The notes under the pieces: generated by a model
The model's input: only the letters and a program-made list of their open reading frames with translations
Told to the model about the DNA's origin: nothing
The model's database searches: none
Part shown: positions 9,931 through 61,764 of the stretch, one piece after another
How positions within the stretch are numbered: the first letter of the stretch is position 1
How the letters are laid out: the number at the start of each line of letters is the position of its first letter
Assembly: GCA_025558075.1 (NCBI GenBank)
Contig: JAHLKF010000016.1
Location: forward strand, 62,001 to 126,000
Direction: 5' to 3'
Source of the DNA: Gaertneriomyces semiglobifer
Taxonomy: Eukaryota; Chytridiomycota; Chytridiomycetes; Spizellomycetales; Spizellomycetaceae
Length of the DNA: 64,000 nt
Program-made: the position numbers and the translations under genes

Positions 9931-9998
9931 GAACTTTGGGTGGGAGATCCTTCCGTAACTCCTTGTAAATAGCGCAATACCACTTCTATCATTGCGCC

Positions 9999-12690
9999 AT
10001 GTCTCCTCCAGTAACCATCGAGTATCGACGTCCAGGCGCATTCGCATCCAAGAACAAGGGAAACCATTCTTCTGCTGCTCCTACCATTCAGCAGAAACAA
10101 ACTCGCTCCGATAGCGGTCATTCGCCAGCTTGCGAAATCATTGACGTCCGCGGCCGCACACCCACTTCCAATACCGATGTGAATCTCCGCGAGTCCATCT
10201 TGAATGCCATTCAAACCAAGAATGTTGGGTTCACCGACCCGAAAACCGGAGAGGAATCTTGTATTAGGTCCATTCCAACAATGGTCCTGTACGATGACAA
10301 AGGTCTCGACATCTTTGACCAGATTACCTACATTGACGAGTACTATCTGACAAACTGCGAGATCGATATCCTCAAGCGTAATGCCGAAGAAATTGTCAAC
10401 TCGGTTGCGTCAGACAATGCAGTCTTTATTGAGCTGGGTTGTGGATCCATGCGAAAGACCAAGTATCTACTAGAAGCTATAGAGCGCAAAGGTCTGCGAA
10501 ACGTAACCTACTACCCTGTGGATCTATCCCGTTCCTCTCTCCAAGAGTGCATCGGTCCTCTCACGCTTGCATTCCCTACCATTACCTTCCTCGGTTTGCT
10601 CGGTTGTTACGAGGATGCTGTGCATTATGTAAAAGAGACGCTCCCTGCAACAACGCGTAAGACGTTCCTATGGTTGGGATCCTCCATTGGCAATCTGAAC
10701 CGCGAACAGGCAGGTGCTTTCTTGCGGCATGTATGCCAAGAGGGCATGAATGAGGGTGATGTGTTTGTGTGCGGGATCGACCGTAGGAATGAGAGTGCAT
10801 TGGTAGGCTCCGCCTATAACGACTCACACGGGCTCACAAGGGACTTTATCATCAACGGCCTGGACCATGTCAATCGTATCTTTGGTGTCAACATATTCGA
10901 CCGCGGCGACTTTGAATATGTAAGCATTTACAACGACAGAGAAGGCCGCCACGAAGCCTACTATAAATCCCTTCGGCGCCAAACGTTGACGTTTCCTTGC
11001 AACGATGGTACAACAAGTGCAACCGTCAATGTCACGCTAGAGAGTGGCGAAATGATCAACGTGGAGTACAGCTACAAGTATTCCAAAACCGAAGTACAGC
11101 AACTAACCGAGACTGCCAAACTGTACTATGTGGGCAAGTGGACGGACAACCGAGACATGTACGACCTTTGCCTTTTCCAAAAGCCTCCTTTTTGGTTCGA
11201 AAAGAACGCAACTAGACCGGCTGTGCCCACTATCGCTGAATGGCAAGAGTTGTGGAAGGCATGGTGAGTCATTCACGTTTCCGCTGGTTGTTGTGCTATC
11301 GTTGGTGCTCATGGTGCCGGTTCGACAGGGACACGATCACCACTCCTCTGCGGTCGGAACCGTTAACACAACCCATTCAGCTTCGCCATCCGTATGTATT
11401 TTACCTCGGGCATATTCCCGCATTTTTGGATATTCAGATATCACGCGCTTTGAACCCTACCGAGCCTTCTTATACCTCTCCGCAAGATTTCCCCCGTATA
11501 TTTGAACGAGGGATAGACCCCGATATGAATGATCCTCTGCAGTGCCATCCACACTCTGAAGTCCCAGAGCAATGGCCGGCCATCACGCAGGTGGTTGCTT
11601 ACGCGCAGAGGGTGAGACGGAGAGTCCAGAAAATCATGAGCGAAATTGAAACCAATGACGAGCTTCGGGTAAACAAGCGATTGATGCGTGTTCTTTGGAT
11701 GTGTTACGAACATGAAGCAATGCATCTCGAGGTAACTAATAAGACGAATCAATTCTTCTGCCGTTTGCTCACGAGATACGCTGTTAGACAATCTTGTACA
11801 TGATTGTACAACAGGAAAAACCTCTGCCTCCTCACAAAGTCCTCGCGCCGTTATTGCCTGCTACGCCCCCGACCGTGCCTCCATTGTCCTTCCACCAATT
11901 CTCTGAGGTTCCCAGCACCATCATGACTGGCCTCGATGATCCAGAGGCGGCTGACTTTGATGGCAACGCATCATACCCGGAAGTCTATGGTTGGGACAAC
12001 GAGAAGCCCGTGCGCGAGCTTCCTCTGAAGCCGTTCGCTATCTCCGATCGCAAAATCACAATAGGTGATTGGATCAAGTTCCTCGACGACCATACCAATT
12101 GGGATAGTGCGGACATCCCTTCCAGCTGGCTGCGCGTCAACGCCGGCACAGATCACTCTGCTACTGGATACTTCCTGAGGACTCTGCACGGCCAAGTGCC
12201 TCTTCAGCGGGTGCTTCACCTTCCCGTTCAAGTCTCGTACGATCAAGCGTTGCGCTACGCAAAAGTGCGCGGCACACGTCTCCCAACAGAAGCTGAACTT
12301 CGGTATTTGCGCCGTGAGCAAAAATCGCTTGGTGCAGCACCGAACTACGGCTTTCAGCAGTGGATACCTGCAACGGTGGATACAGTGGTTGGCGACTTGT
12401 GGGAGTGGACGGGCAGCGTGATGGATAGATCGGAAAAGGATGGCTATGTGAAGAGTGAGACGTATCCGGGTTACTCATCCGACTTTTTGTAAGTTTTTGG
12501 CGTTGGGATTTACGAAGTGGCGAGCCGGTATTGACATGGTTTTTTCATCAGTGACGGTAAACACAACATCGTTCTCGGTGGTTCGTGGGCTACGGTGCCG
12601 CGCCTGTCCGAGCGGGAGTCGCTGGTCAATTGGTACCAGCGTGGCTACCCATATGTATTTGCCGGTTTCCGGTTGGCAAGAGACATCTAG
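9999..12690 (+). CDS. EGT1: Ergothioneine biosynthesis enzyme Egt1 (methyltransferase plus sulfoxide synthase)
   Basis: Exons are 9999-11263, 11329-11731, 11788-12488 and 12552-12690, giving about 835 aa. Fungal Egt1 trimethylates histidine to hercynine (EgtD-like half) and then joins hercynine to cysteine as a sulfoxide (EgtB-like half). The N-terminal domain shows the SAM-binding motif ELGCGSMRKT (about residue 145) and LGSSIGN. The middle is a DinB-like domain with the iron-binding HEAMHLE motif (about residue 549). The C-terminus is an FGE-sulfatase-type domain with TRLPTEAELRY, GDLWEWTGS and LGGSW, ending FAGFRLARD. Length and domain order match the fungal family. A TATA box lies 68 nt upstream. 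Confidence 0.93.
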
Positions 12691-18041: not shown

Positions 18042-21000
18042 ATGATTGGAGCTTCTGCGACGGCTTCATGCGACCCAGCACAAAAGATTTGCAACCTGGT
18101 CTTACAGACCCTCTTCCCGTCGATCTGTTCTCTACACCAGTACTTGGATCATCAAGCACAACAACCCATCACGAGGCCGAATGATCCATTAGAGTACCGC
18201 CTCCTTCTGGGGACAACCGTGGTTGCTAGGAGCGATGGAAAGGACGGTGTGCAACTTAGTCAAGGGCAAGTGGTTTTCCACCAAGGAGAAATCGTGGACG
18301 GAGTGATAGAAAGGCTGGTGAAAGATGGGAGTCTCAACATTTTAACTTTTGGATATCGTAACGTAAGTGCAGCCCAGCGTCACCTGCAGGCTCTGCTTGA
18401 TAGGATGCTTGTAATCTAACTATAATGCTTCGGCATCCCGATAGTTCAGTGGAAGGGGCATTCGGGTTCATGGTACTCGACAGCTGGAGAGCTATTTTCC
18501 TAACACGATAGTCAATCAGGTCAAATCACCAGTATGGCAGATGCTTTTGGAACGCATAGGCGTTCGGGCCATGCGTGATTTGCTCTTAAACTGCTGGATA
18601 TTTGTCGATGTTGGCTGTGGATCTTTTATACAGGTTGCCGGTGAGCAACTCTCGGGGTGGTCCAAAACCTTGATGGCATTCACAGCTAATGCGTAATCTT
18701 TAAGGTACTCCAATTACTGACTCGAGCATTACTGCTGGGACCATGCACTTGACCACAACTGGTGAGAACAAGCGAGCAGCAGGAAACCAACCCGCACCAA
18801 AGCCCAAACGTGCTAAAATTGATGAGCCTGTTTCGGCGGCCAAGCTGCCAGATAGGTACGCGACAGCTCTGGTTGTCATACTTGGGCCCGCCCTGATGAC
18901 ATCCCATATAGAACTACCCTTGTGACGACTCTTCCATTTGCGCGACGGCGAATCTTTTACACTCGACCCATCCGAGGCAGTAAGAACTCCATTATTTTTG
19001 GCCTGCCTAAGAGCCACATTTTCAATGCGACTCGACATGTACCTGAATCGCAAGCGGTTCGTCAGGTGCTGGGTCGCATGTTTCCGCGCCAATTTGGCAT
19101 GTACAGCGTTTTTGAAGAAGCACAAAAAACGAAAGATCTCAACAGTCTAGAGTGGGATGGTGACGATGTTGAACTGGAGGTGTGTTTTGTGCCTCGAGCT
19201 TTTTGATGTGCTTTTCTCACCAAACCCACCACAGCCGGCCATCAAGAAGAAGCTCCCATGGAGGCTGCAGACGGCACAGGGTCTGGTTTCCAAGATGCTG
19301 TATCTTCATCGAAAACTCAATTATGCAGCTCTCCTGGATCAGTATTGTGCACGACCAGCAATTGTCCGTGGCCATGGCGTTTCATATTTTGACAGCTGAG
19401 ATATTAATCCAGCACGTACTCCTTCGCAGAACATTGCAACAATGCCCAGAACGAGTTACCTGACTGCCCACTCGACTCATTTCCAGGTTTGGACCTTTAT
19501 TCTGGCGTGCTTGAAGCGGGTTATTCCTCGAAGCTTTTGGGGCACGGATCACAACCGGCAAGTCATTTTCACATGTAAGTGAAAGCAAGCTGAGGACCTA
19601 CCCGTTGTTTTTTTCTTTTGATGAAAGACGTCCCTCTTCTTTGCAGCCCTTAAATTGTTCATTCGCTTACGGCGCTTTGAGACACTCTCATTGAACAATG
19701 TTCTCAAGTGCTTCAAGATTTCCGACTGCTCGTGGACGAATCCTTCACGAGCCGAGGCCCGGCATCCGCCACCTAGTGAATCTCGCAAACGACTTGAGCT
19801 TGTTCTAGAGTTCTTATGGTGGATTCATCAAGGCCTAGTAATTCCGTTACTCAAAACCAATTTTTATGTAACGGAATCGGCTCCGCATCGCAATCGCATT
19901 TTTTACTTTCGTCACGACGTATGGGACACCTTAACTAGACCTGTGTTGACAAAGTTGATCGGCCAGTGTGGCATGTTCAAGCCCCTGCATCAGAAGGCTG
20001 CTGATGCGTCTTCAAAGGAAAAGATGTTGAGCTACAGTTATGTACGGCTGCTACCAAAAGAAACGGGCGTACGGATGATCATGAACTTGAAACGGCGAAC
20101 CGTTCCAGGACAGGGCAGAGGAGCAGCGAAATTGTCTAGGAATTCGAGTACACTCAGCGATGAGAGCACCACGAGGAGCAAGTTTGGGCAAAGTATCAAT
20201 ACTATACTACAGAATGCGTTTCAGGTGCTTTGTTTTGAAAAGAGGCGGAATCCTCATTTGTTGGGGGCGTCCGTGCTCGGCCTGAACGATATCTACCTGC
20301 GCTTGTCCTCGTACAAGGCCGGTCTCCTGAATCAGTACGGGAACATTCCACCCCTGTACGCTATCAAGCTGGATATCCAGGCATGTTTCGACACCATCCG
20401 TCCCGAACTCCTGATGAATATTATCAAAGACGTTCTCTGCGACGAAGAGTATCTTGTTGCAAAACATAGCCTGGCGTATCCCTCCATGGATCGAATCAAA
20501 AAGCGCTACGTACGAACTGCGAGACCTGGCTGGGACTGGAAACAGTTCTCCGATTTCGTTGACAGTGTCAAAGAAGGTGTGAAGGGAACAGTTTTTGTCG
20601 ACCAGGTGAGCTACGTCAATAATTGCTGGCAGCGCCCACCCTTATTAAACCGAACCAGGTTGTTTATAACTTGGAAGAGACCCAGAACCTTTTGGCGTTG
20701 CTGACGTCTCATATTCGCCACAATTTGATCAAGCTCGGCAAGAGGTTGTATCAACAGATTATTGGAATCCCCCAGGGATCCATCTTATCGACCATACTTT
20801 GCTCATTCTACTATGCTCACTTGGAAAAAATGCTGTTGCAGCAATTCATGAATGACGACACCATTATTCTGCGTTATGTTGACGATTTTCTAGTCATCAG
20901 TACCAAGAAGAAGGACGTGGAAGGGGTATGGGAGGTACTCAAAGATGGAAGCCAGTTGCACAATTGTGCCATCAACCATACCAAGACCTTGTCTACCTTC

Positions 21001-21703
21001 CCCATTCCTTCGCATCCTGACATCAAATTCATCTCACCCAATCAGCCGTTTCCGTGGTGCGGTCTTATGCTGCACTTTGCCCAACTCGAGGTTTCTCCTG
21101 ATATCAAACTCGCAACGCATATATCCAACACCCTCACCATCCCACTTCATGCACGGCCCGGGATGCATTTTCAGCAGAAAGCGATGGCTTTTCTGAGACC
21201 GAAGATGCACGCCTTGCTCTTGGACACGAACTTCGGCACAGAAGAACGGGTCATCAAAAATGTTAGCGCTTTGCTCAAGGCCGCTGCCGGCAAGGTTTGG
21301 GCGTACGTGCGCGTTCTCAACAACGGGCAGGAGAGCGTTTGGCATGGCTTACGTGACCAGTGGTTATTTGTAACCGTGAAAAACATGCTTCGATTATGCT
21401 TCATGATCATTCAAAATATGATGAAGGGACGAGTGGCAACTTCATGCGGAGGGAAATGTGAACTTCGGTGGCCAGAGATCGAATGGTGCGTTGCGTTGCT
21501 CGTTGAGCCGCATGCGCCTGCGTTAATGAACCGATCTTCTGATTTTGTCACTGTTCTCCAACTGTAGGATCGGATTGCAAGCGTTCCTTAGCGTTTTCAA
21601 GCAGAAGCAGTGTAATCATTTATTACTCAACCAATTATTAGAAAAGGAGTTAAGTAGCAGGCGGTTCAAGACAATTAGAAAGATCAAAACAATAATTAGA
21701 TAG
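18042..21703 (+). CDS. TERT: Telomerase reverse transcriptase
   Basis: Nine exons: 18042-18362, 18445-18640, 18705-18855, 18912-19179, 19235-19378, 19430-19574, 19647-20605, 20659-21485 and 21568-21703. All phases agree, giving 1048 aa. TERT extends chromosome ends by copying its bound RNA. Visible in order: GQ/TEN-type block with LLERIG; T motif region with RRIFYTRPI and GLPKSHIFN; MFPRQFGMYSVF; RVIPRSFWG; motif 1-2 WWIHQGLVIPLL, YVRLLPKETG and IMNLKRR; motif A KLDIQACFDTI (about residue 649); motif B GIPQGSIL (about 764); motif C RYVDDFLVIS (about 800); and a C-terminal extension ending IGLQAFLSVFK. The catalytic Asp residues are intact. Intron 5 (19379-19428) uses a weaker GTTTCA donor and removes an in-frame TGA; it contains a TATTAAT branch-like site. 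The last small exon restores the expected C-terminus. Confidence 0.92.
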
Positions 21704-33908: not shown

Positions 33909-35610
33909 CTACTGTTGGACTGATTGTGACGATTTGCTTGTGCGCAAGTCACATCTGCAATCGGTCCTCAAGCCTGGCACACACATGATCTGGTCGCAAG
34001 TTGCACGCCTCTCGAGTAAGAATTGCATGGTATAATAGATTGTGTACTTGCCGTGGTTCTCAGTCGGATTAGCTCCTTGAATTTCTTTGATGTGTTCCAC
34101 TACCTTTTCGTACCCTGCATAAATGCCTGCATCGATCATCGGAGTGAATGCAACCGGTTTGACACTCTGCATATCCACCATGGAGGAGATGCATCCGCTC
34201 CGGGAATTTGCAATTCTGCTTTTAACGCAGCATTTTCCACCCTCTGCGGACGCAGATATATCCAGCTGTCGCGGATCTGTTACGAGCAGGGTTGGGCTGT
34301 CTCTTCCGAAGACCGGTTCCGCCTCGGTCTGGTAGGTATGATCTGGGAGCAGCTTTAGTCGGGATGGATCTGTACCTTTTGCTGCCGCGTCATTACAAGT
34401 TGCTTCCTGGTTGTGTTCATGCAGCGTCTTAAGGCCAGTGGGCGGGGTGGGTGCCACGTGCGCTACTAAAAGCCGTAAGTCCCCGCTGGAAGTGTGTGCA
34501 AAAAAGGCGAGGGTTTTCTGAGTTGTATCGAACATGTTGGTAGAGTTGCGATTTTGATCCTTGTAAGATCTCTCCAAGGAACTCTCCATCTCTTGTCGTG
34601 CTCGGCAGACGCGATCTTTGTTCGTCTGCTTCTCGCGCGGTCTGGCAGCGACAACCTTGTCCCATGCCTCCCGTCTCTGAAACCCTCAGCAAAAAACAAA
34701 ATTTAGCATGAGCAGGATCCCCGAAGTGTATTGACAGAAGGATGGTAGACGCAATGGCAAACTCTCGCGCTGGATACCATCGATCAGAGAACAAATGGCT
34801 CGCAGCTGGACAAGTGGGTGTACCCGAGGTAAAACCCCTTGCCACGAGGCTGCCGGACCGCACTCGGCCGGGCGCACCCCGGTCAATACTTCACGTCTCC
34901 AAATCCAAGTCGACGTGGGTGGAAACCTTCAAAAAGTGCCAATGCGCCGCGCAGCGGAAGGTAGGTGACAGCGATACCATCGATCAGAGAACAAATGGCT
35001 CACTGCTGGACAAGTGGGTGTACCCGTGGTAAAACCCCTTGCCACGAGGCTGCCGGACCGCACACGGCCGGGCGCACCCCGGAGAGCAACACAACGAGAC
35101 CCGCTGAACTTGTCCCACTTCACGAGCTCGACGACCATCCTCGTTGAGAGTGACAGATGCGGTCGCGTATGACGCGCCAAGTGTTGCTACAACCTTGCAC
35201 GTACTTCCGTCCGCCCATCCTGAAAGGTAAGCAGTGCACTTACCAAGGAGAGGGCTTTCTCGAACTTGTCTAATCAGCCCTGGATCGCTTTCCGGAAACC
35301 GGCCTTGAATATTGCCTACAATGGTCCAAAAACGGCTGAAGGCGTGAACGGCCGTCTTGAAGTGCTTCCCTGTACTGTTCAAATGTGAATCCGGCGGTGA
35401 CATAGTCCTTGTAATCTGGGACCGTAGGAAGATCACCGTCCATGGTGAAAGTAACCAGCAGGTTTGACGCGGCACATGGATGCCCGCATTGGTGTTAGGG
35501 TTGCTCACTTCTGTGGCGCTGACTTTGGCTTGAAGTTTAGATATTGTGCGGCATATCGATTCCGTTATTGCTAAGCCTGTGGTACGCACTTTCATTTCGA
35601 CGTTTGACAT
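33909..35610 (-). pseudogene. Broken minus-strand coding locus beside the CR gene
   Basis: Several minus-strand stretches look coding but lie in different frames: 34984-35610 (ATG at 35610, with MDGDLPTVPDYKDY in another frame of the same stretch), 34429-34880 and 33909-34589 (includes KYTIYYTMQFLLERR). I cannot join them into one intact frame with normal introns. A 110-bp segment occurs twice inside the locus. Divergent from the CR gene at 35803, with 192 nt between start codons. Family not recognised. Position suggests decayed members of the same accessory gene class, but that is inference. Confidence 0.4.
34773..35082. repeat. 110-bp direct repeat, two copies at 200-bp period
   Basis: Copy 1 is 34773-34882 and copy 2 is 34973-35082. 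They differ at only a few positions (for example GCA/ACT near 34804, A/T in CCCGAGG versus CCCGTGG). The offset is exactly 200 bp. The repeat is GC-rich with a GGCCGGGCGCACCCCGG end. The 90-bp spacer is unique in the window. Confidence 0.85.
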
Positions 35611-35802: not shown

Positions 35803-38114
35803 ATGCCAAGCGAGGGACAACAACGATTGGTCGAGCTTTTGCAGTCCGAAGACCTGGATGAGTACAGCGATGCTCTTATATCGCAAGGTTTTAAGACGGT
35901 GAAGTCTGTAAGTAGAGCGCCGCTGTTCTGTCGCTGTGACTCGTACGCGCATGCACTGTCATTAACTTGATATTCAGCTGGGCTACTTAACGGGAGAAAG
36001 TCTTGAGCGGATGAGTATTCAGCAGGAGTATCCCAAGCGCAGGCTTTTGGCGCTTGCCGAGGAGGGTGAGCTTATTGGCCAATGTCGCCAGATGTCCGAC
36101 GTTTGCCTGACATGTGCATTTGCAGTGACGGGTGAAAGATCTGCCAAGCGGCCACGCCTGAACAACCTCGCGGTCGGCCCAGCCGAACCAGCTGATCCGA
36201 GATTTCACGTTGTTTTTCCATTTGAAGACCTTGACTGGGCCGCCAAAACTCTTCAGAAGCTAGTGCGTGAAGACCGTGTTTTGACAGTACTTCATGGTCC
36301 GTATTCTTGCGGCAAGACCTCCATTCTTCGTTGGATTCAGGAGGAGTTACAGGCACAGCCCAACGTGGTAGTGGCTTTGGTGCATGGCGACATGATAGTT
36401 GGCCGCCAGGAAGAGGCTGTTGATCCAGCCGAGTTTTGGCGCCGAATGGGCCAAGCTCTTCTTGATGACCCAACTGTCGGCTCCTACAGAGACATGTTCT
36501 ACCGGTTGTCGGAGACATATGGTAGGTCAAACAGCAATTTGTTTCTTTTTGCTGTTGTAAGTGCTAATCACACCGTACTCAGCTGGCCGACGGTGGTATT
36601 TCATCGTGGATGAGATGACAGTGCTTGTGAGCAACCAAGGAGCTCGCTCTCAGTTTCTTGACTTCATGACATTGCTTAGTGGGTATAGCGAAGCCAGCAA
36701 GTTTTTTGGTGGGTTTTTGGGAGCTGGAACGCTGGTAGCGAGCAACCTGTTGCGTAGCCCTCCAATCACGGCTGCGCCAACTCCACAGGAAGCGGAGCCG
36801 TCAGGTGGTCAGTCGCACACCGCCGGTCTAGCTCAATCTTTGCAACGGGCTCTCTTGGACTCGTCAAGGTACCGGTCCCCTTTTCAGAGTGGAACCCATA
36901 TAGCAGTTGGCACGCTTTCTCTGGACCAAAGCCTGCATTATTTGGAGATGGCTGTAAAGGCTGCGTGGCTGGAAGTGGACGATGATGTGAAGTCAGATAT
37001 TCACTTCTTCACCTTCGGTAACATCGGTTTGGTGTCATCGTGTGCATCGCTACTCTGCCAGCACGCCCCATCCAACCGACACATAACGATGGTGGAATGG
37101 CAAAAGGTAAAGGGTAACGCGAAGTTGACCTGTTTTCTGGGACGCCTTTTTCTAACTTGCTTTTTCAGATAAAACTGTTCCACGCGGAGAGTCATCTTAC
37201 TAGGTGGAATCGAATGACGTGGCGGATTACAAATACGTTTCATACTTCCTCTGATGAAATGAAACAACTTATTTTGGATTTGCTGGTGCATGAAGGTCCG
37301 CGTGTACTACAGGAGCGTGAAGAGGATGCTGGAGAGACGCTGATAGAAATGGGTATCGCAACAAGAGGGGCCACTGGAGCAATCCTCTTGTCGTCACCGT
37401 ACATGCGTATGCTGCTTCTGCGGTTGGCGTACCCGATGAAGAGAATTAGCGGTATTACGGTTCCCAAACTAGATGATCTCTCTATCGACGGGCTGAAGTT
37501 ATTGCAGCTTGCTCTTGAGTATGTCGCCAAAGGTACATTTTCATTGACACTGAGGAACCACAATCATATGACTAAAAATTGCGTTGTTCTTTGTCTCAGC
37601 TGTAATCAGCGCTCCTTATAGTATGAATCGAAATGGCCCGTCTGAAGCCGTCATCCAAGCTGAATTATATTCCGTTTTCAAGGCAATCGGCGAATCTACG
37701 GGAGACTTCAAAGTGTTTGTGGAAGTGAAGGAGAAACCTGGGGCGGCAATGCGTCTGGATCTGATGCTCGTTGACGTGCATGGGAATCCCATTGTGGGCT
37801 ACGAACTAAAAGTTGGGTTACTCCGTGCAACTGATATAGTGTCCGCAGTGCGAGATCAAGCTGAGAAGTATCGAAAGGACCACCGCCTCCCGCAAATGTA
37901 CCTCGTGAACTTTGTCGCAGACACCAGTGGCCTGGACCGGAACCTCCCTGGGCGCGTCGGTAATGTTGATTGTGTTGTTTTTCGATACTCCGCCGGCTTT
38001 CAGCAGCTACGCCGGGAGCCTCCGGCAGTCACTTCTGCAGCGCCAAGCGCAGCCGATACGCAGATTTTGTACGAGGTAAAAGGGGCGGAAAAGCGAGACA
38101 CAGTGTTCATATAG
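35803..38114 (+). CDS. Crinkler-like (CR) protein: SAM-like domain, P-loop NTPase, PD-(D/E)XK nuclease
   Basis: Exons are 35803-35907, 35978-36065, 36126-36521, 36583-37106, 37169-37532 and 37600-38114, giving 663 aa, all in phase. Residues 8-55 look like a SAM helical domain (LLQSEDLDEYSDALI). A short KRPR basic patch follows. The NTPase has Walker A GPYSCGKTS (about 121-129) and Walker B YFIVDEM (about 202-208). The C-terminus is a restriction-endonuclease fold: a helix with Glu (AVIQAELY), then RLDLMLVD (Asp 546), GYELKVG (Glu 561, Lys 563) and a following Gln/Lys helix. This NTPase-plus-nuclease architecture is the one described for Crinkler-RHS-type effectors, which are expanded in chytrids and oomycetes. 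All catalytic residues are present. Intron 2 (60 nt) has no stop and could be retained. No signal peptide is visible. Confidence 0.72.
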
Positions 38115-46158: not shown

Positions 46159-49018
46159 ATGGGGATGTCAAAGGGAGCGGTTTTGCGCCATGCTGCGTCG
46201 CTTGGAACGAAATACACTGTGAGGGATCTGCTTTTTATGGCGGGGAAGAGCGCCATATTCTCGTCTTTGAGGGGACAACAAAAGCAACCCCAAAGCTCTT
46301 ATAGTCCTCAAGACGTGCAGCGCACCTCGCTGGTAAATGTGCGAGCTTCTGGAGACCTCCTGGTCAGAGAAAGGGTAAGAACGAAGACATCGTCCACGCC
46401 CTATAAAGTGAGTTTACTCATAAAGTCTACCGTTCGGCTGTGGAACCATTGGGCATGGTATCACGTGATCTATTACGCCGCGAAGAACAATGACTGAAAT
46501 TCCCCAAGGTCCCCTTTTGGAAGGATTACTTGACGAGCGGTAAAACATTCGAACAGTATGTAACGGACAGAACGGCCTGTGCTCGATCGCTTGAGCAGCT
46601 TGGGAAGCAGAAAGATGGATTGTGCAGGACCAAGAGAGAATGCCTTGAGAGACGCTGCACGCAACTTCGGAAGGCAGCAGCCGTGGTGAGTACAGCAAAC
46701 GTTTTGCGAACAAGGTGTCTACGTGTTGGTCCCTGCTGGAGAAGTCATCTTCAAAGGTATACCGGGGAGGAAACCGGTGTTAGCCGGCGGGCCTCTTCGT
46801 GGCAAGGTCCGCTGAGAATACTAGCAGGCACTTGTCCGCCGAGCGCAGCGGTCGCTGTATCTCCGTCATGTAGACACCACCTTTTTGTTGATAGTCCATG
46901 TCTACGTATTGGTCCCTGCTGGAGAAGTCACCTTCAAAGGTATACCGGGGAGGAAACCGGTGTTAGCCGGCGAGCCTCTTCGTGGCAAGGTCCGCTGAGA
47001 ATACTAGCAGGCACTTGTCCGCCGAGCGCAGCGGTCGCTGTATCTCGGTTACGTGACGGCGAAACAACACAACATATATTTCCATGTCACCTTCGCGGAA
47101 AGTTTGCTGATGCTCTCTCCTTTTTAGAACCTGGTGCATTGGGATACCGAGATCAAGAGAGCGACAAGGCAGCAGATGCTACTGGAGGAACGCCTGGCTC
47201 GAAAGCAACGACTCGAACGCCATCATGATATTCAGGTGCTACAGACCAGGTGCCAGGCAAAGCGCCATAGCGAGCAAATGATCTTGGAACGCCTGAAGAA
47301 GACACAGAGCACGTTGGCGCACACTCTAATCTCAGCAAATGAAATCGCCTCCAAGGACTTCCGAACGTCCCTGGGTATACTTCCAGTATGTGAAAGAAGT
47401 TCCGATGACATGGTGCAACATGCACATGAAAATCATGGTGATCATGAAGGACAGGAAGTCATGGCTGATGACATGGTACAGAAAGCAATCGACGGCGCGT
47501 CTACAAACGGGACCATGGACAGGGTGCTGCAATCACAGAGTGAACCTTCTCTACCACAAAAGCGAAAGGTCGAAGAAATAGTGAACAACGGTGGAGGCGT
47601 GTTAGTCAGGCACATTCATAGTCCCGTGCGTACGCGTTCGATGAAAAAGAAGTTGGCGTATTTGAAGCCAAATCACCCACCCCAGACCGAGCGACCTGAG
47701 ACCACAGCCTCTGGTAGCCACTATATTGACACGGTGAAGGGTGAGGCAGATCCTTTCTGTATTTCCGAAAACAACGAGGGCCAATCAGAGTGCACAAGTA
47801 CGACGTCTTTGACTTTAACAAGCGATGAGCGGACAGACGAGGTGGAACTTGTGAGGGAAGTTGTAACCCCACCCAGAAAGAGAAAGGTAGATTGTTTGGC
47901 AGACCTGGGGGAAAAGGAGCTAGTCGCTGTGGAGGACATCATGGAGCTTGCTGGGGGAGACGGTGGGGTGAGAACCTATCTTGGGAAACTGATCGAGGCC
48001 ACCCAGCACCCTGAGGTTCATCTGCAGCAACGCGGCAGGCACATGATAAGATTAGTACGAGACGCTGGTATGTTAGACAGTCGGATGTATGGAGGCGCTG
48101 GACCATCTCGTACAGCAGATTTGCCGGTGACGCTACCTCTAGTGGACACTTTGAAGTGGCTTGGGACTTCGTATCCGCAAATCGCGAAAGAATTGGCAAC
48201 GTTAGCGAAGAATAAGGCAATTATTGACAACGGCGGCAATCAGCTTGTGAGACTTATCAAAAACCTTCGATCGTCCATCTTCGGTGGAACGGGAAAAATC
48301 CCCGCTTTGCCGCACCTAGAGTATCAAGGTGTTTGCTGCTTGCTCCGGCGAGCTTCGCGAATCGACACGTCTTTACATGTAGGTGACGAGCAGGACCTGC
48401 GCTTGGCCTGGGCTGCAATCACGCAGGAGAGCCTCACAAATGGGTGCCAGACGGAGGTTTCACTCGAGTTCCGGCATGAATTCGTTGCCAATAAGGCGAA
48501 ATCCGATGTTACCCTTTTTGTCGAAGCTGAAGGGTTTCCAATAGGATACACCGTTTTGGAAATCCAAAAAGCCGACACCGGCCCTCACAAAAGATCATCT
48601 CGTCACCCCAGTGGAGCTCGCTCAACAGATCTCAAAATTCATTGGCTATGTGGATGTGACTGAGGATGAGGTGGAACGACTGCGTTTTCACTACGGGCTG
48701 GTATACCGATGGCGGATTTGCCTTTTTACGGTGCGCGTACACAAGACAAACGGGGGATATTTCCTGTTAGGGGAGACCGGGCCGACCTACCGTATTGGGT
48801 CCCACGGGGAACAACTACGCGGGATTTTGCAATATGCGCAGTATTTAATCCAGGAGGTAATCAAGGATGGCGAAGCGCTTCACCGTCTCTTGCTGTCACG
48901 GGCCGGTTCACCGAGTCTGGATATCGTACGTCATCTAAGATTCAAAGGCTGTGAAGCCCCGCGGAGCCGAAGTTCGTCTGCACCGGTTACACCTCACCCA
49001 AAACGAGTCCGCAGCTGA
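46159..49018 (+). CDS. Large coiled-coil protein with possible nuclease-like core, one frame break
   Basis: Exons are 46159-46407, 46509-46685 and 47128-49018, with introns GTGAGT...CCCAAG and GTGAGT...TTTTTAG, both phase 0. The frame shifts by one base near 48590 in ACAAAAG (PHK then KDHLVTPVELAQQ). The N-terminus is basic; exon 2 and early exon 3 form a coiled coil (LEQLGKQKDGL, MLLEERLARKQRLERHHD). A charged linker with KRKV-type nuclear signals follows, then a folded C-terminal region. KSDVTLFVEAEGFPIGYTVLEIQK resembles the Asp...Glu core of PD-(D/E)XK folds and parallels the GNPIVGYELK core of the CR gene. The nuclease idea is inference, and the Lys of the motif is displaced. Family unknown. 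Confidence 0.55.
46717..47046. repeat. 147-bp tandem duplication (183-bp period) inside an intron
   Basis: Copy 1 is 46717-46863 and copy 2 is 46900-47046, nearly identical (T/C and G/A single changes). Both lie in the 442-nt second intron of the coiled-coil gene. The period of 183 is a multiple of three and the plus frame stays open through both copies, so an unspliced product would not stop here. Confidence 0.85.
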
Positions 49019-59415: not shown

Positions 59416-61043
59416 CTTTTTTAGTGTATGTTGGTGTGTGTTGCGTCAGGGTATCAGAAAATCGCCTTTGGTTTTGCCTTTCTATTCTTCACTTGATTGA
59501 TTCACGCTGATTTCTTAAATTATCCAACTCGTCCAGGACACAAAACTTGGTGAAGAACCAATCCTCTTGCTCTTGCTCGTAACTTGGAAAACGAGCCTAC
59601 AAGAGCTCCGCCTTGAACAGAAACGACCCTCCTCTAGTAAACGATTTTGAAAGTGTCCTTTGCACAGTAGTAGTAACAGCCGCGCGCGGTTCTTCTCCCC
59701 AAAACCAGAGATCCTCCGCGCCCTATTAACCCTCCGATTCCGCCAAACTCTGCACAATCTCTAACAGACAGTTGCAGTATATAATATAGTCCTGAAGAAT
59801 ACTTGGGCGTGGAGTGGTGATGTAAAATCTATCTATATCTATGTCTATCCGCCGACGGCGGGTTGGGGGAATGAAGAAAGAGAAAGAGGGAGGCTGGTGT
59901 ATGTAATGGTCCGTAGTTTTTACCCTCTCCCTCGAGGGAAGAATAGGGTGCCGAGTTTGTTGATTGAGGAGCGCAATGTGCAAAAGTGCCCGAACAAAGC
60001 GAAAAGAATTTGAGGGTCTCGGTTGATGTGACGTCAAACCCCGCCCTTCTCTCAGTATGAACTGGTATCGGTGGTTTGAACTTTGCAGCGGCGCGGGAAA
60101 CTAGTATCTCGAGATCCTTATCTCGCTCTCTTCAAACCTCTGCTACGTTGGGCGGCCCACAACCGGGGCAATGACTGTTTACGTAGTAGAAAGAAATGAA
60201 AAATGATGAAATGGTTCTGTCTTTGTGGATCCTCTGCGGCGCGCGCGGGAGTGTCCAGATCTGTATATATGCCGGGGGGCGGCGGGGGGGTGGGGATATC
60301 ACAGTTGGGGTGTGAGAAGATATGGAAAAATGGTTACTGGCTCTATCTACTACTGTGCATGTGCAAAGTGTAATGTGAGAGCGGAGTAGCATATATGATA
60401 ATAGCACCTACGTACGCCTCATCGATCTACATAGAAAATGTCACACACCCACACCCACACACGATGGGATCGTCCAAATACCCGAATATGAATTGGGAAT
60501 TGATGGGATGCGCCCCGCCCCCCCCAAAAAAAACAAAGAAAAACCTCTCTCTCTCTTCTCTGATCTTCCCCCCGTCGCTCGTCATTCCCCCCCTCCCCAT
60601 CCCAAGATCCCCAAATCCAAAGTGCACGCACACACACACACACACGCAACAACAAATCCAAAGAACTGTTCGACGGGGAACAAACGCAACGCAACTCGGG
60701 AACAACCCTTTCTTCCCATCCACAACACAACGCGTATTACGTCACTCCGACAAACTCCGACATGCTTGTTGTCGATAAGCACATAGATGACGATGGTCAT
60801 GACTCCGCACTGTTTGGCACATGTCAGCAAACAAATACAATGACTAATGATTATGTGCGGCACAGCGCGCGTAGCTGCAGTTATTGGTTTAAGTAAGCCA
60901 TAAATGTATTACACAGCCACTAGATGTTAATTAGCGTACACGAATGCGGCACAGTCACGCGTGGTTCTTTTTGGAGCGCTGTGAACTTTTAAACTTGTCA
61001 AATAGGAACACGGACGGATAACACACACCCTACCGTCACAACC
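59416..61043. other. Intergenic with simple repeats
   Basis: About 1.6 kb holding the promoter of the MscS gene. It contains pyrimidine and G tracts and a (CA)n run at about 60629-60645. Overlapping frames at 60395-60863 on both strands come from these simple repeats and are not genes. Confidence 0.5.
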
Positions 61044-61764
61044 ATGCGTCCAAACGCTAGGAACTCCCTCGTTGATTCCGACGATGTCTTCGAGAGGGAT
61101 TTCAAGTATGTCCCTCGCAGGGTCGTCGACAGAACAAAGCGGGATCATAAACGAGCAAGCGTCGATGACTTTAAGGCGCAAAGCCATCAAAGCGCATCAT
61201 CATACATCATGACCCGTTTCGCAGGCGACTTTCTTCAAAAGATCCCCACTTATGCAGGCCCCCTCGACGGTGATAAATCACTAGTGACCTTCATCCGCTC
61301 AATCTCAACCCTCCACTCCCTCTGCCCAGACCTCTCCGACACAGACCTATTCAAGATCGCTCATGCCCATCTCCGTGATCAAGCTTACACCTGGTTAAAA
61401 CGCGTAAACGACCAACACCCCATCGGCCATCCCGATCACATACACCAATGGTCGTCTTTAGAATCCAAACTACTAGAACGCTTCCGTCCTTCCAAGTTTT
61501 GTAGAAGCCCAACGGATCGCTCTTTATGACCTTAAGCAAGACGGTACGCTCACCGAGTATGATGCTGCATTTGAGGAAATCTGCGAACGGATACCTGATA
61601 TGACCCCAACCGACATCTGTCATGCGTACGTCCGCGGCTTGAAACCGATCATTCGCGATGTGATCCGTATCGGTGTTCCTTGGGGTACGCAAACTTTGGA
61701 TGGCCTGCAATTGGCTGCTGGGAACTTTGACCCGTCCATTTGGGTCGAAGAACCCGTCGAATGA
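61044..61764 (+). pseudogene. Retrotransposon gag remnant with a frame break
   Basis: A gag-like helical protein begins at the ATG at 61044. The block SSLESKLLERFRPSK is followed, after a one-base shift in a TTTT run near 61498, by FVEAQRIALYDLKQDG, TLTEYDAAFEEICERIPDM and HAYVRGLKPIIRDVI, ending at TGA 61764. This is the retrotransposon gag domain pattern of Ty3/gypsy-type elements. No zinc knuckle, protease, reverse transcriptase or integrase is seen in the remaining window, and no long terminal repeats were found. A truncated, decayed copy. Confidence 0.6.

Follow-up and report, generated by a model that had tools for sequence, protein, structure and literature searches.

The window analysed here is a stretch of 64,000 nucleotides from the chytrid Gaertneriomyces semiglobifer (assembly GCA_025558075.1, contig JAHLKF010000016.1, positions 62,001 to 126,000 of the forward strand), and our subject is a six-exon gene at window positions 35803-38114 (+) that encodes a putative nucleoside triphosphatase (NTPase) joined to a nuclease. 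On balance, we consider it probable that three things hold jointly: the window contains one intact G. semiglobifer gene with the order SAM - P-loop NTPase - winged helix - PD-(D/E)XK nuclease, the body of its product is that of the CR (Crinkler-RHS-type) proteins, and the product acts inside the cell. The parts of the gene are as follows.

35803..35907 (+), exon 1: residues 1-35, with the start codon and the N-terminal half of the SAM header
35818-36052 (+), SAM match, residues 6-60, interrupted by intron 1
35978..36065 (+), exon 2: C-terminal half of the SAM header
36126..36521 (+), exon 3: linker, then the first part of the NTPase
36146-36157 (+), basic cluster KRPR in the exon 3 linker
36296..36319 (+), Walker A motif GPYSCGKT, residues 122-129
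36583..37106 (+), exon 4: continuation of the NTPase, with 31-44% identity to the four paralogs
36597..36617 (+), Walker B motif YFIVDEM, residues 202-208
37169..37532 (+), exon 5: winged-helix middle; the modelled stretch, residues 387-460, lies at 37214-37435
37600..38114 (+), exon 6: nuclease of PD-(D/E)XK-like type, with the stop codon
37758..37760 (+), predicted catalytic Asp546, from the aligned rows of the genome copies
37803..37811 (+), predicted catalytic Glu561-x-Lys563, from the nuclease alignments

The spliced exons form 663 codons plus a stop, with no internal stops; introns 1-5 of this model are all GT..AG, and the reading frame continues from exon 4 into exon 5. The same order of parts is found at four other places in the genome, where identity to the window copy amounts to 31-48% (exons 4 and 6, counted separately). 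The open spliced frame, the canonical introns and the like-ordered paralogs bear out the first-pass annotation, made from the sequence alone, in its claim of an intact six-exon gene for a 663-residue protein. Across 1000 shuffles of the coding sequence at the single-base level, open runs reached 246 codons at most (mean 84); the recurrence of the ordered parts together with the conservation of introns 3-5 is stronger evidence against chance than these shuffles.

The SAM-like N-terminus is confirmed by the header alone, which scores 25.9 bits against the Pfam cut-off of 23 for SAM_1; within the full-length protein, SAM_2 reaches 20.6 bits (cut-off 20.5) and SAM_1 20.6 bits, under its cut-off of 23. 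In sequence searches of the PDB, the window protein obtained no more than weak matches, all to SAM (best E 0.2), and a full profile matched best the SAM structure 6fxf (E 0.0013), with NTPases marginal. The N-terminus looks hydrophilic by eye, with no hydrophobic stretch or evident signal peptide. The P-loop NTPase has intact Walker A and Walker B motifs, beginning at residues 122 and 202, respectively, as originally described; its best Pfam match is AAA_22 (21.3 bits, under the cut-off of 27), and the corresponding NB-ARC match in a paralog on another contig (C28, see below) reaches 22.8 bits, under the cut-off of 23.5. The middle part resembles the winged helices of Roq1, Avs3 and Avs4 in structure comparison. 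We infer from these features that the NTPase is STAND/AAA-like with a winged helix. No WD, ankyrin or TPR repeat family was matched after the NTPase in Pfam searches of the window protein, nor any repeat family in the C28 paralog.

The order P-loop NTPase, helix-turn-helix (HTH), restriction endonuclease (REase) fold is thus present, with the NTPase under the Pfam cut-offs and the nuclease fold at moderate Z. The predicted nuclease core has the succession alpha-beta-beta-beta-alpha-beta with D..ExK and moderate fold matches, and the catalytic Asp, Glu and Lys proposed earlier are in place (RLDLML...ELKV from residue 544). The first-pass annotation had staked its case on a structural match to a restriction fold, and the predicted fold is PD-(D/E)XK-like, with moderate matches. 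Among 21 structure-comparison rows past residue 200, two were not counted as nucleases, namely 6r0j, a rhomboid N-terminal domain, and 1xmx, VC1899, the title of which gives no function. Pfam searches of the window protein and of the nuclease region matched no nuclease family, a PDB search with the nuclease profile matched nothing, and Foldseek comparison of the better model with PDB and BFVD gave nothing at E <= 0.001. The nuclease exon folded alone had a predicted local distance difference test score (pLDDT) of 46.9, and its Foldseek list was not used.

The gene belongs to a family of at least five near-complete copies, which we denote by contig (C16, the window copy; C19; C28; C2; C3), plus a fragment on C27; copy counts are lower bounds from searches in which the nuclease exon, exon 3 and exon 4 each served as a query of its own. 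A paralog count, one of the checks proposed in the first-pass annotation, therefore gives at least four further near-complete copies and one remnant. C28 (674 residues) and C2 (655 residues) have six exons and open frames, with 209 of 621 aligned residues identical between C16 and C28, 195 of 633 between C16 and C2, and 223 of 624 between C28 and C2. In these three copies, introns 3-5 have a common phase and fall at identical or neighbouring columns of the alignment (252/253, 427, 553), and the intron that closes the header is in phase 1; the intron inside the header is in phase 0 in C16 and C2, which carry SAM, and in phase 1 in C28. We read C19 and C3 as frame-broken near the NTPase start or in the header region, where an assembly error is possible; all that is left on C27 is part of a SAM exon (21.3 bits, cut-off 23) and the beginning of an NTPase. 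Invariant in all five genome copies are the ExK residues Glu and Lys as well as the Glu of helix 1, and the Asp that precedes ExK is present in four, with Ser in the otherwise open C2 (a row taken from the DNA reference). In alignment A4, which has six rows, three of them genome copies, Glu and Lys are found in every row and Asp in five, with Asn in P0004, one of the rows that are not genome copies. Because Ser replaces the catalytic Asp, C2 is probably not a nuclease.

Two frame-broken copies, one remnant and one copy lacking the nuclease Asp support the fast turnover that had been expected of this family. For the decayed coding sequence said to flank the gene, support is weak and consists of one match of 20 residues, 65% identical to the open reading frame (ORF) at 46494, located at 35372-35431 (-) (E 2.9e-4, genome-wide E 0.06). 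The slightly longer segment 35369-35431 (-) resembles the start of that ORF (62-65%) and is perhaps a decayed copy of it. Also upstream of the gene, at 34773-35082, lies a direct repeat whose two 110-nt copies are 96% identical and 200 nt apart; they have no clear relation to the repeats at 46716 described below.

The headers differ among the copies. SAM exceeds a Pfam cut-off in C16, C2 (23.8 vs 23 bits) and C19 (31.2 vs 23), and in BLASTP the C16 header matches those of C19 (E 1e-8) and C2 (E 3.8e-5). The C3 header is SAM-like only, with one piece at 13.4 bits (cut-off 20.5) and the other without a match. C28 carries instead a header of 107 residues that is unrelated to the SAM headers, the best BLASTP match of any of them to it being E 0.10, and that ends, like them, at a phase-1 intron. 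Pfam gave no match for this header and the PDB none that was informative, and the header was not found a second time in the genome; by eye, it seems to have a beta-beta-alpha-beta-alpha-beta pattern, which may hint at a ubiquitin-like fold. Given one body with a SAM header in C16, C2 and C19 and an unrelated header in C28, we conclude from the sequences that two unrelated headers occur on one body and were exchanged at an exon border; C28 thereby lends weight to the earlier suggestion that SAM takes the place of another header. Trees of exon 4 and exon 6 both separate C16 and C19 from C2, C28 and C3 (support 76 and 98), placing C28 beside SAM or SAM-like copies; with five unrooted tips, these trees do not fix the direction of the change.

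A genome search with SAM_1 gave 12 places at E <= 0.1, one of which is the C27 remnant. Six SAM loci (L028, L029, L031-L034) were inspected by eye, two of them also with Pfam, and no other SAM-headed nuclease was seen among these; L024-L027 and L030 lay outside this scope. At L034:1474-2343 (contig C5), a SAM-like exon (16.7 bits, under the cut-off) lies on an open frame of 290 residues, which contains a basic KRQR cluster, has no further Pfam match and could be another SAM-headed protein.

Relatives outside the genome are few. When 5.8 billion proteins were searched at full length, neither C16 by itself nor a C16/C2/C28 profile matched anything among candidates of ~365-1160 residues, of which the best 7997 by shared words were scored; this is not proof of absence because eukaryotic genes may be stored as fragments and because of the length and word limits. 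The nuclease profile gave six matches, P0001-P0003 from the G. semiglobifer genome and P0004-P0006 on short contigs whose source is JGI or ENA. No relative turned up in viral contigs or prokaryotic genomes, in scans that require a short peptide pattern, or several, to match and that distant relatives would escape.

By architecture, the protein most likely falls in the CR class with NTPase, HTH and REase parts and carries a SAM header, a placement that comes from the build and not from named-family profiles. CR proteins with such a C-terminus were reportedly described by Zhang et al. 2016; that founding paper lies outside the literature matches listed, among which there was no SAM-headed Crinkler, and may list one. 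The gene is accordingly a SAM-headed variant of a known Crinkler-type NTPase-nuclease build, with a header not seen among the literature matches listed. The match to the CR toolkit proposed in the first-pass annotation stands with respect to the NTPase-HTH-REase architecture and the exchangeable header. The Crinkler domain PF20147 was not matched in the window protein by Pfam. RHSP (PF07999) is likewise absent from the Pfam matches of the window protein at E <= 10, a range in which HMMER filters drop most matches above about 0.1, and a genome search with PF07999 found nothing, as in the control genomes. PF20147, searched in the genome and read exon by exon, gave one weak match on C4 (19.4 bits vs cut-off 24.6) and matches in none of the 14 control genomes; the C4 place was dropped as a second Crinkler, since by eye it looks like a ubiquilin gene. 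In a review (PMC5289972), NTPase, HTH and REase form the order of most CRN C-termini in two Phytophthora species, and Crinkler-type proteins include free-living carriers and several unrelated headers. Rhizophagus Crinklers are described with REase, NTPase4 and HhH domains (PMC6131194), and CRN-like genes are counted in chytrids (PMC5364385): 162 in Batrachochytrium dendrobatidis, 10 in B. salamandrivorans, 11 in Homolaphlyctis and 6 in Spizellomyces, the last two being saprobic.

The most likely function, judged from the domains, is that of an NTP-switched intracellular nuclease. SAM domains are intracellular modules. They mediate protein-protein interactions, according to PMC9815663. In the mechanism we envisage, the NTPase and winged helix would hold the C-terminal nuclease off until a trigger arrives; trigger and ATP loading would then lead to oligomerisation, SAM would cluster the protein or recruit it to a partner, and the nuclease domains brought together would cut DNA, their predicted activity. 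The likeliest use appears to be within the cells of the fungus itself, to counter invading or selfish DNA or for cell killing, rather than injection into a host. Soil isolates of G. semiglobifer are treated as saprotrophic soil chytrids in PMC9024642. The species belongs to the order Spizellomycetales, and the assembly contains a radial-spoke gene, in keeping with a flagellated fungus. We favour own-cell action because of the free-living habit, the lack of an evident signal peptide by eye and the basic cluster at or after the header end. The KRPR cluster may serve a nuclear role; as evidence it is a weak pointer, as clusters of this kind occur elsewhere too.

Action in host or competitor cells, as the first-pass annotation envisaged, finds no support, because this soil chytrid is reported as saprotrophic, and the N-terminus looks hydrophilic by eye. 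In its broader form, this alternative takes the protein for a CR effector delivered into other organisms (microbes, algae, plant debris, pollen cells), as assumed for oomycete Crinklers, and draws on the shared domain order of most CRN C-termini of two Phytophthora species (PMC5289972) and on the CRN-like genes of chytrids (PMC5364385). We regard it as unlikely, given the saprotrophic habit, the lack of a hydrophobic N-terminus by eye, the intracellular nature of SAM modules and the protein-protein interactions ascribed to them (PMC9815663), and the report, in PMC5364385, of signal peptides in only 2 of its chytrid CRN-like genes. Still less probable, in our view, is an NLR-like protein of self/non-self recognition, with SAM as a signalling adaptor and suicide by DNA cleavage as the outcome. 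The STAND-like NTPase with its winged helix would fit such a protein, as would the Crinkler ubiquitin-clan domain and SAM_Ste50p newly annotated at fungal NLR N-termini (PMC9815663), but no repeat family was matched after the NTPase by Pfam, a nuclease occupies the C-terminus and the NB-ARC match remains under its cut-off.

The gene model itself invites another alternative, two adjacent genes, one for SAM and NTPase and one for a winged-helix nuclease. The deposited G. semiglobifer protein BC832DRAFT_124641 (277 residues; P0003) is identical to residues 387-663 of our model and shares its exon 5/6 junction, and all three deposited models, P0003 (C16), P0002 (C19) and P0001 (C3), start downstream of the Walker motifs and so lack the header, these motifs and most of the NTPase. 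However, the three starts lie at different places: P0002 and P0003 begin in exon 5, whereas P0001 starts in the final portion of exon 4 and spans the intron-4 junction. Combined with the in-frame exon 4/5 junction, the phase and column of introns 3-5 kept in C16, C2 and C28, and the part order kept in five copies, this makes two genes quite improbable. For the single gene with an intracellular product, we offer a wider proposal, speculative and rather doubtful as a whole: in free-living chytrids, the CR body would be a resident intracellular DNA-damaging switch for defence or suicide, the header (mostly SAM, with a different fold in one copy and a phase-1 intron as the point of exchange) would be an activation or recruitment module and not a secretion or translocation signal, and pathogens would have adapted the device by changing the header.

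Elsewhere in the window, 46494-49018 (+) holds long ORFs of no recognised family, with a nearly perfect tandem duplication inside (156-nt copies at 46716-46871 and 46899-47054, 96% identical, 183 nt apart); two distant relatives of its 511-residue frame occur in the genome, on C8 and C24. A telomerase RNA-binding domain (113.9 bits) lies at 19625-20701 (+), and 20623-21567 looks by eye like a reverse transcriptase part. At 60993-61526 (+) there is a retrotransposon gag-like ORF (23.1 bits, cut-off 24.1). The second part of 9969-12489 (+) matches FGE-sulfatase (57.3 bits), and the whole presumably resembles a fused ergothioneine-type methyltransferase and sulfatase-modifying-factor-like enzyme.

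The gene bears on the role of Crinkler-type proteins outside pathogens and on that of their headers. A saprotrophic chytrid with one NTPase-nuclease body and two kinds of header offers a natural header-swap comparison, in which the header as a translocation signal and the header as an activation module can be tested against each other without a host. The protein resembles CR proteins in its succession of P-loop NTPase, HTH and REase-fold nuclease, in its modular header, exchangeable on a conserved body, and in belonging to a small family with broken copies in a free-living eukaryote, and differs in having SAM where the ubiquitin-like LxLFLAK header stands. With Crinklers proper (PF20147; oomycetes, Rhizophagus, Batrachochytrium), it shares the kind of C-terminal enzyme module found in part of them, but SAM replaces the N-terminal ubiquitin-like domain. 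A STAND-like NTPase, and SAM and Crinkler-ubiquitin N-termini, link it to fungal NLRs, from which it differs in having no WD, ankyrin or TPR repeat match in Pfam and in its C-terminal nuclease. Avs, QatA and BrxD, prokaryotic STAND/AAA ATPase-nuclease defence proteins, likewise join an NTPase switch to a nuclease, and the winged helix resembles those of Avs3 and Avs4; unlike them, the window protein presumably has no TPR sensor and another domain order, and the PADLOC and NCBIfam matches are marginal (best mad8, 5.6e-4, in two of three members).
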